A stretch of 64,000 nt of DNA from an uncultured Clostridia bacterium (lineage in GTDB: Bacteria; Bacillota; Clostridia; Monoglobales; Monoglobaceae). Both the position numbers and the translations under genes were made by a program. The notes under the pieces are model-generated. The model was not told where the DNA came from. It saw nothing but the letters and a program-made list of their open reading frames with translations, and ran no database searches. This document shows positions 34,898 to 51,692 of this stretch, one piece after another. The stretch is taken from NCBI GenBank assembly GCA_947625905.1, contig CANQQJ010000001.1:1-64000 (forward strand), given 5' to 3'. Numbering within the stretch: the first letter of the stretch is position 1; each line of letters opens with the position of its first letter.

Positions 34898-35741
34898 TTA
34901 AAAATTCCCAATTAAATCCAAAAGGGCGGGCGGCCGAGGTCGTCCGCCCCTACGACTTTTTGCGCATCACGGCCGTAGGGAACGCAAAAAATAGGCGCCC
35001 CCTCGGGGATAATCAGCAAGCTTGCTTGCGGGTTCAAAGCTATCTTTCAAAATTGCTTGCAATTTTGACCAAGAGCTTCCTTAATGCCGGCTGCGGCTTG
35101 TCCGCAGACTGAGGGGGGGGGAGGCCTAATTACTATTCGTTAATAGGGACGTCGAGGGCGCCGTCCCCTACAACATTTTGCGCACTTTTGCCGTAGGGGA
35201 CGACGACCCCGGCGTCCCGCAGGGCGGCAATCTGCCGCCCGTCCTAGTCCCTAGATCCTATTCCCTAGTCCCTACGTTCCCACCTCCGTCTTTTCGCCTT
35301 TGGCGAAAATCCACCTCCTCCCGGGAGGAGGCAAACGGGCGGGTAATATCCACCCCTACAGTATTTTGCAAACTACGGTCGTAGGGGACGACGACCCCGG
35401 CGTCCCGCAGGGCGGCAATCTGCCGCCCGTTCTAGTCCCTAGATCCTATTCCCTAGTCCCTACGTTCCCACCTCCGTCTTTTCGCCTTTGGTGGAAATCC
35501 ACCTCCTCCCGGGAGAAGGCAGACGGGCGGCCGAGGTCGTCCGCCCCTACGATATTTTGCAAACTACGGTCGTAGGGGACGACGACCTCGGCGTCCCGCA
35601 GGGCGGCAACCTGCCGCCCGTCCTAGTCCCTATATCCTATTCCCTAGTCCCTACGTTCCCACCTCCGTCTTTTCGCCTTTGGCGAAAATCCACCTCCTCC
35701 CGGGAGGAGGCAAAGCGGCGCGGAGCCAGCGGGAGGGTTGT
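34898..35741. repeat. 844-bp block of mosaic palindromic repeats
   Basis: The gap between the LRR gene and malQ consists almost wholly of repeat modules. A REP-B hairpin lies at 34927-34954. Next come small hairpins, including AAAATTGC/GCAATTTT near 35050, then a GC module with CTGAGGGGG near 35107, then the three-unit tandem array at 35192-35712. Open frames through this block read only repeat sequence and are not genes. Confidence 0.85.
35192..35712. repeat. Three tandem copies of a ~190-bp composite repeat
   Basis: Units start at 35192, 35380 and 35571 (spacing 188 and 191 bp). The third is truncated at about 142 bp. Each unit contains, in order, a REP-A hairpin, a GGGCGGC/GCCGCCC hairpin, a heptad array, a TTTTCGCC/GGCGAAAA hairpin and the CCTCCTCCCGGGAGGAGG palindrome. 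Units 1 and 2 also continue into a REP-B-like hairpin and a short spacer. Units differ by scattered substitutions. Confidence 0.9.
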
Positions 35742-38514: not shown

Positions 38515-38547
38515 TTGACAGAATTTTCATCGGCTCGGGTTTATAAT
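38515..38547 (+). promoter_or_regulatory. Possible spoIIG-type promoter with long spacer
   Basis: TTGACA (38515-38520) and TATAAT (38542-38547) are 21 bp apart. The Bacillus subtilis spoIIG promoter also has an over-long spacer (22 bp) and depends on Spo0A. TTTTGACA at 38513-38520 is the complement of TGTCAAAA, which fits a Spo0A box. If the -10 is real, translation must begin downstream of ATG 38549, for example at GTG 38564. Confidence 0.45.
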
Positions 38548-38548
38548 T

Positions 38549-40114
38549 ATGGCGGTGATAAAAGTGACGGTGTATATCGACATGCTGTTTTTGAGCAATC
38601 TGATAATAAACTCAATGCTCGTTCTGTGGTCGGGGATCATATTCCGCGAGCGGATGACGGCGGCGCGGGCGCTGCTGGGCGGCGCTGTCCTTTCGTGCTA
38701 CTCGGTTATCATGTTTTTTCCGCGCGCGGGGCCGCTGCTCACGGTCACGGGCAAGATAATCTGCACCGCGCTGTTCGTGCTGCTGTTCTACCGCCCCAAG
38801 ACCCCGATCGCGCTGATTCGGCGGACCGCGGTGTTTTTCGCGCTGTCGCTCATAGTGTGCGGAGCGGCGTTCGCGGCAGCGGCGTGCCTGCCCGGGACCG
38901 TTATCTCAAACGGCGTGCCCTGTTTTGACCTGAGCCTCAAAAAACTGCTGGCCGCTTCTGCCGCGGCCTTTGTGATGATCAAGCTCACCGCGGACATATA
39001 CACAAGAAACCTGAGCCGCGGCATTGTGCATATGACGATTTTTTCGGGCGGACAAAAGGCAAGGGCGAGAGTGCTGATCGACACGGGATGCGAGCTGTTT
39101 GAGCCGCTGGGCGGGCGGCCGGTGCTGCTTGTCCGCGGAACGCCGCTTAAGAGCGGCGTTCCGATAGCGCTCGGCACCGTTGCGGGAGACGGCGTGGTGT
39201 TCGCTAAAAAAGCCGACAGGATCATCTGTCGGGACAGGGAGTTCGGGATCGACGCGGGCCGCTGCCTCGTCGCGTTCACCGAGGCCGAGTTTGCGGGCGA
39301 CGGCCTGTATAACGGCGTCGCGCCGCCCGAGGCGTTTTATTTTAAACACAAAAAATTATTATTGGGAGGAATGAGAATGAAAGGGCTCACAGACAGAATC
39401 AGGGCGCTGCTCGTTCGCGCGCTTGTTAAGCTGGCGCGGCTCAAAAAAGGCCGCGTTCATTACATAGGAGGAAGCGACACCCTGCCGCCGCCCCTTGAGA
39501 GAGAAGAAGAGCAGATATGGCTCGCAAGGCTCGGCGACCCCGACTTCGCCGAGGAGGCGCGGCAGCTGCTGATCGAGCGGAACCTGCGGCTGGTGGTGTA
39601 CATCGCCAAGCGGTTTGACAGCACGGGCATAGGCATTGAAGACCTGATCTCGATCGGCACTATCGGGCTTATAAAGGCTATCAACACCTTCAGGCTCGAG
39701 AAGAAAATCAAGCTCGCGACCTATGCCTCGCGCTGCATCGAAAACGAAATACTTATGTACCTGCGCAAAAACAGCAACGCCAAAACCGAGGTGTCGATCG
39801 ACGAGCCGCTCAACGTGGACTGGGACGGGAAGGAACTGCTGCTGTCCGACATACTGGGGACCGACGGCGACGTTACCCAAAAGAGCATAGAGGATGAGAC
39901 CGACCGCGAGCTGCTGAGCATCGCGCTGAGCAAGCTGGGCGGCAGAGAGCGCAGCATTGTGGAGATGCGTTTCGGCATAGGGCGCGGCGGCGATGAGATG
40001 ACCCAAAAGGAAGTGGCGGATCTTTTGGGGATCTCGCAGTCATACATATCAAGGCTTGAAAAGCGGATCATAAAGCGCCTGCGCAAGGACATGACCAAAA
40101 TGCTGACGAGCTAA
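38549..40114 (+). CDS. spoIIGA-sigE: SpoIIGA pro-sigma-E protease fused in frame to pro-sigma-E
   Basis: One frame of 521 codons. Residues 1 to about 272 are SpoIIGA: about five N-terminal membrane helices, then a soluble aspartic-protease domain with the catalytic Asp178 in [13 protein letters not shown] (the residue after DTG is Cys, not the usual Asn). From Met275/Met277 the frame continues as complete sigma-E. In Bacillus subtilis these are adjacent separate genes and SpoIIGA cleaves the pro-peptide of sigma-E. No stop separates them here, so a fused product is possible. ATG 38549 has no clear Shine-Dalgarno. GTG 38564 (GGCGG upstream) gives the typical [10 protein letters not shown] start and may be the true one. 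Confidence 0.88.
39377..40114 (+). CDS. sigE: Pro-sigma-E, probable internal translation start within the fusion frame
   Basis: Mother-cell sporulation sigma factor. ATG 39377 has GGGAGGA six bases upstream, so a separate 245-residue pro-sigma-E is likely made even though the SpoIIGA frame reads into it. The N-terminus is a basic amphipathic pro-sequence of about 28 residues ending before [12 protein letters not shown], where SpoIIGA cleaves in Bacillus. Then come region 2 ([50 protein letters not shown]), [17 protein letters not shown], and region 4 with [20 protein letters not shown]. All are close to known sigma-E sequences. Confidence 0.93.
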
Positions 40115-40662: not shown

Positions 40663-40739
40663 GGCGGTATAGCTCAGTTGGCTAGAGCATACGGTTCATA
40701 CCCGTAGTGTCACTGGTTCAAATCCAGTTACCGCTACCA
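40663..40739 (+). tRNA. tRNA-Met (CAT), elongator type
   Basis: A 77-nt cloverleaf including CCA. Acceptor arms GGCGGTA/TACCGCT, D-arm with AGCTCAGTTGGCTAGAGC, anticodon stem TACGG/CCGTA around TTCATAC (anticodon CAT), and T-loop GGTTCAAATCC. The initiator-specific GGG/CCC anticodon-stem pairs are absent, so it is elongator Met. A tRNA-Ile(CAU) modified by TilS cannot be fully excluded. Confidence 0.92.
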
Positions 40740-40745
40740 ACACCC

Positions 40746-40820
40746 GGCTCCTTGGTCAAGTGGTTAAGACTCCGGCCTCTCACGCCGGCTACAGGGGTTC
40801 GAATCCCCTAGGAGTCACCA
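40746..40820 (+). tRNA. tRNA-Glu (CTC)
   Basis: 75 nt including CCA. Acceptor arms GGCTCCT/AGGAGTC, anticodon loop CCTCTCACG with anticodon CTC, and a T-arm ACAGGGGTTCGAATCCCCT closely like known tRNA-Glu. It lies six bases after tRNA-Met in the same transcript. Confidence 0.93.
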
Positions 40821-51074: not shown

Positions 51075-51692
51075 CTATTTTCCGAGAAGCTCGGCTATTT
51101 TGAATTTGATTTTTATTTCGGGCGAATCGCCTGTTATAAGCTCGTATTCCGAGTCTGTGAGGCTGTCGCGCAGCCTTTCGTCGGCCTCCTCGGCGGTCAC
51201 GCCGTCCACAAAGCAAAGCGGCGGATACATGACGCACCACCAGTTGGCGCCCGCCGCGCTGCCTATCCCGACGTTCAGCGCCGAATACTCGCCCCGCGGC
51301 AGGGACACAGCGTCGAACGGCCGCTCATAGCGCTTCGTGGGAAACGCGCGCCGCTCAACTTCGCAGCTCACGTCATAGTCATAGCCCTCGCTCCGAATAA
51401 CGTCACGCGCCACATATTTTATAAAGCCGAGATTGTTGCTTGCCGCGCGTTCGGATTCCTCAAGGGTGCGGCAGTTGCGGAACAAAAATCCGCAGCGCTC
51501 GATTATCTCGTCCCTGACCTTGAGCTTCAGCGCCTGATCCGCCTCCGAGTCGCTGTTCGCCACGATGTGCAGCCTCAGCACGCTTGACTGTATGTCCTCG
51601 GTCTCTTGGTCGACAAAGCTCAGGTATATCACCGCGGCGAGCGCCGCCGCGAGAATTACGCCTATGAGCCGCATATAATTGATCTTCGGCAT
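51075..51692 (-). CDS. spoIIR: Stage II sporulation protein R
   Basis: A forespore-secreted signal that activates SpoIIGA in the mother-cell membrane so that pro-sigma-E is processed. The 205-residue protein has an N-terminal signal anchor (about 7-26), VLRLHIVANSDSEADQALKLKVRDEI, and the diagnostic NWWCVMYPPLCFVD. In this window it complements the spoIIGA-sigE frame at 38549-40114, about 11 kb away. A GGAGG-like site precedes ATG 51692. Confidence 0.95.
   Translation of the reverse strand: MPKINYMRLIGVILAAALAAVIYLSFVDQETEDIQSSVLRLHIVANSDSEADQALKLKVRDEIIERCGFLFRNCRTLEESERAASNNLGFIKYVARDVIRSEGYDYDVSCEVERRAFPTKRYERPFDAVSLPRGEYSALNVGIGSAAGANWWCVMYPPLCFVDGVTAEEADERLRDSLTDSEYELITGDSPEIKIKFKIAELLGK

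Follow-up and report, generated by a model that had tools for sequence, protein, structure and literature searches.

A spoIIGA-sigE gene fusion with a retained internal start in Monoglobus

The first 64,000 nucleotides (nt) of contig CANQQJ010000001.1 (GenBank assembly GCA_947625905.1), hereafter the window, come from an uncultured bacterium of the Monoglobaceae and encode, in one uninterrupted reading frame, the sporulation protease SpoIIGA and the mother-cell sigma factor sigma-E that this protease activates. The frame comprises 521 stop-free codons on the forward strand (38549-40111), terminated by TAA at 40112-40114, and Pfam assigns residues 7-254 to SpoIIGA, 341-409 to sigma-70 region 2 and 459-513 to region 4. 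An initial annotation of this DNA had described such a frame, running without a stop from a DTG protease (Asp178) into sigma-E, and translation and profile searches both confirm it; the D178-T-G codons lie at 39080-39088, and D178 is invariant in all 48 aligned proteins. The fusion is genuine and not an assembly error: of the 12 Monoglobus genomes searched, 11 hold the locus, and 10 of these have an open junction. The system itself, spoIIG, is known; new here is the fused arrangement with a retained internal start. The frame is divided as follows.

38564..39340, + strand: SpoIIGA part of the fusion, delimited by Pfam, hydropathy and AlphaFold2 models, with the start placed by alignment; protease domain at residues 151-264
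39341..39376, + strand: linker of 12 codons, also the presumed translation-initiation region of sigE (GGGAGGA at 39364-39370)
39377..39460, + strand: internal ATG and sigma-E pro-sequence (residues 277-304), with cleavage predicted directly before Y305
39461..40114, + strand: mature sigma-E (residues 305-521) and stop codon TAA (TIGR02835, 359.8 bits)

The SpoIIGA half scores 117.9 bits against PF03419 (Peptidase_U4; MEROPS A36), passing the gathering score of 28.4, and stays below the cut-off of the NCBIfam equivalog TIGR02854 (96.9 versus 209.55 bits), as do its counterparts at the Monoglobus loci L002 (98.3 bits) and L003 (109.8 bits). Its Pfam match and position class it as a divergent homologue of SpoIIGA rather than a certified equivalog. 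The sigma-E half exceeds the cut-offs of two NCBIfam SigE equivalog models (375 versus 339 bits; TIGR02835, 359.8 versus 348.6 bits) and is the only sigma-E-like gene found in the window's genome. Hydropathy analysis locates five N-terminal hydrophobic regions, predicted to be membrane helices, within residues 8-151. The protease domain folded alone yields a retropepsin-like AlphaFold2 model. Fold comparison of the whole fusion returned, among the matches listed, sigma-factor and related DNA-binding structures alone, and the SpoIIGA profile found no solved structural relative (one match, E-value 0.15). Comparison of the core-clade loci revealed purifying selection on both domains. Since SpoIIGA is conserved by purifying selection and no stop precedes sigma-E, the fusion must be translated, barring drop-off or frameshift; judged by the sequence, no SpoIIGA is produced outside the fusion unless frameshift, drop-off or other proteolysis intervenes.

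The SpoIIGA profile matched in 11 of the 12 Monoglobus genomes; in the remaining one, G001 (74% complete), SpoIIGA and any match of sigma-E grade are both missing. In nine genomes the fusion is a single frame of 521-573 amino acids (aa) on one contig, and three relatives share 94-95% identity with the window protein over its whole length; the window owes its genus assignment to its Monoglobus relatives. In G006 the locus is divided between two contig ends, with a continuous junction-bearing piece of 345 aa. An alignment of the junction across relatives had been posed beforehand as a check, and the missing stop proved to be conserved in all locus-holding genomes except one-contig G002; a stop codon in all relatives, which had been named as a refutation, was thus not found. 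The other refutation named, that the junction is an artefact of sequencing or assembly, also failed, and we regard it as highly improbable. Eight fused genomes (G003-G010) are all metagenome-assembled, from seven 'Lapin' samples (presumably rabbit), and the one-contig genome is the unfused one; however, ten genomes with diverged linkers share the open junction, and an error is already refuted for the core clade. If any junction needs checking for error, it is that of G002, which adjoins an A7 run.

No second sigE was found in any of the 11 locus-holding genomes, nor a second spoIIGA, the single copy of G006 being split. The next-best sigma matches in these genomes reach 42-45% identity, or 52% in G002 for a short segment, and appear sigma-K-like, judging from identity and, in some genomes, from nearness to spoIVA. 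The sigma-K-like gene of G002 lies in two halves on one strand (L104, C1:699856-700215, and L105, 727421-727726), about 27 kb apart, an arrangement reminiscent of the skin elements known from sigK in other spore-formers.

The Shine-Dalgarno sequence that the initial annotation placed before the sigma-E start is present (GGGAGGA, 39364-39370), and its retention alongside the fusion supports the suggestion of two possible products, the fusion and free pro-sigma-E. The sigma-E start is placed at ATG 39377; another ATG, at 39371, abuts the Shine-Dalgarno. GGAGGA is invariant in all eight core-clade loci, with a spacing of 7 to the ATG. The linker has a GC content of 0.25, compared to 0.58 for the whole gene, and over 28 core pairs its proportion of synonymous differences (pS) reaches 0.30, whereas four other regions give 0.50-0.63; its proportion of nonsynonymous differences (pN) is 0.25. 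Such a low pS beside this pN marks a signal at the nucleotide level, so internal initiation probably does occur and is probably under selection. Free pro-sigma-E is thus probably also made, and the linker constraint looks mainly nucleotide-level. The first 24 linker nt diverge by 0.29 between L001 and L009 and by 0.54 between L001 and L004. The predicted RNA fold at the linker is -4.4 kcal/mol, versus -30.8 and -20.7 for the flanking 70-mers; shuffled versions of the same stretch fold about as weakly (z 0.17), so that the weak structure is as composition predicts.

Upstream of the frame lies a candidate promoter.

38515..38547, + strand: putative spoIIG-type promoter, comprising TTGACA (38515-38520), a 21-nt spacer and TATAAT (38542-38547)

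The exact TTGACA-N21-TATAAT arrangement recurs in 8 of 10 aligned Monoglobus loci, and the same spacer accompanies the -35 variants CTGACA in L002 and TCGACA in L003. The stretch overlapping the -35 element (TTTTGACA/TTTCGACA) resembles a Spo0A box. ATG 38549 begins 2 nt downstream of the conserved -10 and is therefore not credible as a start. Each of the 10 aligned loci has ATG, GTG or TTG as a start codon at or within a few bases of the position of GTG 38564, the ATG of L003 being six bases earlier in the alignment, and GGTGAT (GGTGAA in L009) precedes this codon. GTG 38564 is thus the likelier translation start. Of the 521-aa fusion in the initial annotation, the open frame of 521 codons stands, whereas the product is likely 516 aa, with a computed mass of 56.8 kDa. 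Cutting before Y305 would give ~32.3 and 24.6 kDa, and internally started pro-sigma-E computes to 27.8 kDa. Transcription from the conserved -10, its start placed from the promoter motif, would leave spoIIGA nearly leaderless, with an oddly short leader of ~10 nt (within 38548-38563).

Beyond the initial annotation, the analysis adds the retropepsin-like model, a conserved cleavage-site region, a low-confidence and presumably flexible linker in the AlphaFold2 model, the lack of a second sigE or spoIIGA in the 11 locus-holding genomes, and SpoIIR matches in 11 of the 12 genomes. Residues Y305, G307 and G308 are invariant in nine fused proteins, and the bond before Y305 is the presumed cleavage site; a pro-sequence leading into such a Y-I-G-G region is a defining feature of sporulation sigma-E. 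The window also holds a match to the expected activator.

51204..51587, - strand: SpoIIR (Spore_II_R; PF09551, E-value 2.9e-44)

Two further sporulation markers, SpoIVA and Spo0A_C, each match in 10 of the 12 genomes, and the window's own genome matches all three. In G002, two Spo0A C-terminal domain matches score equally (C1:299213-299524 and 2358690-2359001).

We consider it fairly probable that the locus is a dual-output gene, yielding a membrane-held, SpoIIR-triggered, self-cleaving polyprotein in addition to free pro-sigma-E. A single spoIIG-type promoter would produce one mRNA, on which initiation at GTG 38564 would give a 57-kDa membrane polyprotein that begins with five helices, continues through the cytosolic, retropepsin-like protease and a flexible linker, and ends in sigma-E preceded by its pro-sequence, whereas initiation at the internal ATG 39377 would give additional free pro-sigma-E. 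Before septation, both would be inactive. On the arrival of SpoIIR, the protease domains would come together in pairs and cleave the bond directly before Y305, either within a chain or across the two partners, freeing mature sigma-E (~25 kDa) and leaving SpoIIGA with a linker and pro-peptide tail (~32 kDa), which would then process free pro-sigma-E in trans. In this scheme we infer the translation of both products, the activation by SpoIIR, the pairing and the cleavage position. Sigma-E lies in the same chain as the protease; that it is the substrate is suggested by analogy to Bacillus subtilis. As a retropepsin-like enzyme probably acts as a dimer, the strict cis cleavage envisaged in the initial annotation is matched in likelihood by cutting of one fusion chain by another, and the fixed stoichiometry proposed there would be broken by internal initiation, which would alter the 1:1 ratio of protease to substrate.

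The unfused loci bear on the origin of this arrangement. Among 20 tabulated loci, 5 of the 13 unfused ones (L014, L021, L025, L028 and L030) have a 4-nt overlap of spoIIGA and sigE, with the sigE Shine-Dalgarno inside spoIIGA. Longer out-of-frame read-ins of spoIIGA into sigE span 116 nt in G002 (L002) and 203 nt in L031 (G018). The codon phase and spacing of the Shine-Dalgarno are 3/7 in the core clade, 1/12 in L003 and 1/7 in G002; such differences suggest two fusion origins. Two independent fusions within the genus, one in the core clade and one in L003 (a single genome), are thus suggested but not proven, and in the simplest history spoIIGA would first have read into sigE out of frame, after which two different indels would have joined the frames. 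Trees bear only weakly on the number of origins. With 15 loci, the topology joining the core and L003 without L002 gave p values of 0.046 (approximately unbiased, AU), 0.078 (Kishino-Hasegawa, KH) and 0.28 (Shimodaira-Hasegawa, SH), and the other two topologies gave AU values of 0.59 and 0.47. A 25-locus tree lacking L004-L006 places L002 with the core (support 55), and a 38-locus tree without L012 and L029 places it with L003 (support 65).

As a bolder and only tentative reading, the locus might be a developmental switch of retroviral-polyprotein type, in which a membrane retropepsin frees its own transcription factor on a signal from the neighbouring cell. It would have arisen twice in the genus, with an internal start from overlapping genes permitting stop loss without loss of free pro-sigma-E. 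As a natural union of enzyme and substrate, the fusion would make it possible to test directly whether cleavage occurs in cis or in trans, whether pairing is the trigger, and whether pro-sigma-E requires its own membrane anchor; it would also show a path from overlapping genes to one polyprotein, and it offers a natural example on which self-cutting on demand can be tested.

Several observations weigh against a selected, functional fusion. In neutral simulations at a mean divergence of 0.29-0.48, all eight linkers stay open with a probability of 0.07-0.25 (0.015-0.042 at 0.63-0.70), so that the open linker frame is not significant versus drift and selection for the fused frame is unsupported. 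The nucleotide-level constraint on the linker points the same way, and three fused genomes lack marker matches: G008 (96% complete) SpoIIR and Spo0A_C, G007 (99% complete) SpoIVA, and G003 (90% complete) Spo0A_C. An internal control would speak against chance openness, with stops in 15 of the 18 alternative linker frames (+1 in nine of nine loci, +2 in six of nine), but its nine junctions were chosen for their open frame and include several close relatives, L012 being left out.

Openness within the reach of drift fits a rival reading, a tolerated stop loss: a short ancestral overlap lost the spoIIGA stop, the frame chanced on that of sigE, and sigma-E became an incidental passenger of SpoIIGA, with useful sigma-E coming from the internal start. 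The 4-nt overlaps and the two read-ins show that the stop can shift without fusion, and relaxation of the pro-sequence in fused pairs was looked for and not visible. However, no indel has entered the linker across the eight core loci, L003 is a possible second fusion, and, with a cleavage site in the chain, sigma-E would hardly remain an inert passenger of an active protease. We hold this explanation to be possible, though doubtful; the fusion may be adaptive or may reflect such a tolerated loss.

The marker gaps, the divergence of SpoIIGA and one Monoglobus metagenome-assembled genome predicted to be a non-spore-former (PMC12536801) would instead fit a decaying locus, with the fusion as a sign that sporulation is being lost in part or all of this Monoglobus group. 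Such decay is improbable, given the purifying selection on both domains, the conserved promoter and the presence of the three marker families in most genomes and of all three in that of the window; the missing matches in G008, G007 and G003 may reflect incomplete assembly or a true loss of the genes.

Among the genomes checked, the fusion is found only in Monoglobus, a genus of gut bacteria, and other spore-formers have the two proteins separate. Outside the genus, calls were judged by open-frame length in overlapping samples, a fusion requiring ~480 aa or more. The fusion was not found in 20 other matched genomes of the family, in 31 matched genomes of the order (including those 20, and leaving out a 541-aa frame of G045, a second, below-cut-off match), or in 119 other matched genomes of a class sample (125 matched of 166). 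There was likewise none among the matches listed for a phylum sample (160 matched of 179; longest frame 467 aa) and none by length in another class (116 matched of 151), where the longest frame, 456 aa in G645, was left uninspected in sequence; in a further sample (287 matched of 391), the longest frame among the matches listed is 376 aa. Thirty non-Monoglobus loci (L052-L081, of 39) have no shared frame, the SpoIIGA part being missed by BLAST in 12 of them, and phage records gave no near match. A 655-aa frame in another family (G132) was rejected as a fusion, as the long open stretch lies upstream of spoIIGA and sigE is in another frame. Six phylum-sample genomes with frames of 399-467 aa were also rejected, sigE being in another frame in five and in the same frame behind a stop in L097. 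A search of the open-access literature, which returns ranked results and leaves absence from print unproven, found no described spoIIGA-sigE fusion.

Around the locus, genes for tRNA-Met and tRNA-Glu lie downstream of sigE (40663-40820), and sigG was not noticed beside sigE in the window's list of open reading frames, for which no profile search was made. A tandem array at 35165-35723 comprises 2.9 copies of a 188-bp unit with 91% matches.

Compared to B. subtilis spoIIG, the fusion shares both proteins and their order, the five N-terminal helices with a cytosolic aspartic protease, a similar pro-sequence length, SpoIIR in the genome and one upstream long-spacer promoter. The spoIIG promoter of B. 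subtilis has a long spacer. The Monoglobus fusion differs in having no stop between the two proteins, whereas B. subtilis spoIIGA and sigE are separate, cotranscribed genes, as the initial annotation held for Bacillus and PMC13174948 bears out. According to the same paper, B. subtilis pro-sigma-E loses 27 residues, SpoIIGA and SpoIIR suffice for processing in E. coli, and the activation of SpoIIGA by forespore SpoIIR is still unsettled; further literature includes PMC3416734, PMC11536998, PMC7593790 and PMC12239564. SpoIIGA is termed a putative retroviral-type aspartic protease, without enzymology, in PMC4140852. Similar to retroviral polyproteins, ASPRV1/SASPase and Rickettsia APRc (PMC4140852), the fusion carries a retropepsin-like protease in one chain with its probable target; unlike them, it would free a transcription factor, and release is expected to await the signal of another cell. 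It also requires no frameshift, and common ancestry of the arrangement is unsupported. A further parallel is offered by the out-of-frame overlaps of G002 and G018, in which spoIIGA also extends past the sigE start and the sigE Shine-Dalgarno lies inside spoIIGA, but the frames differ and thus encode two proteins.
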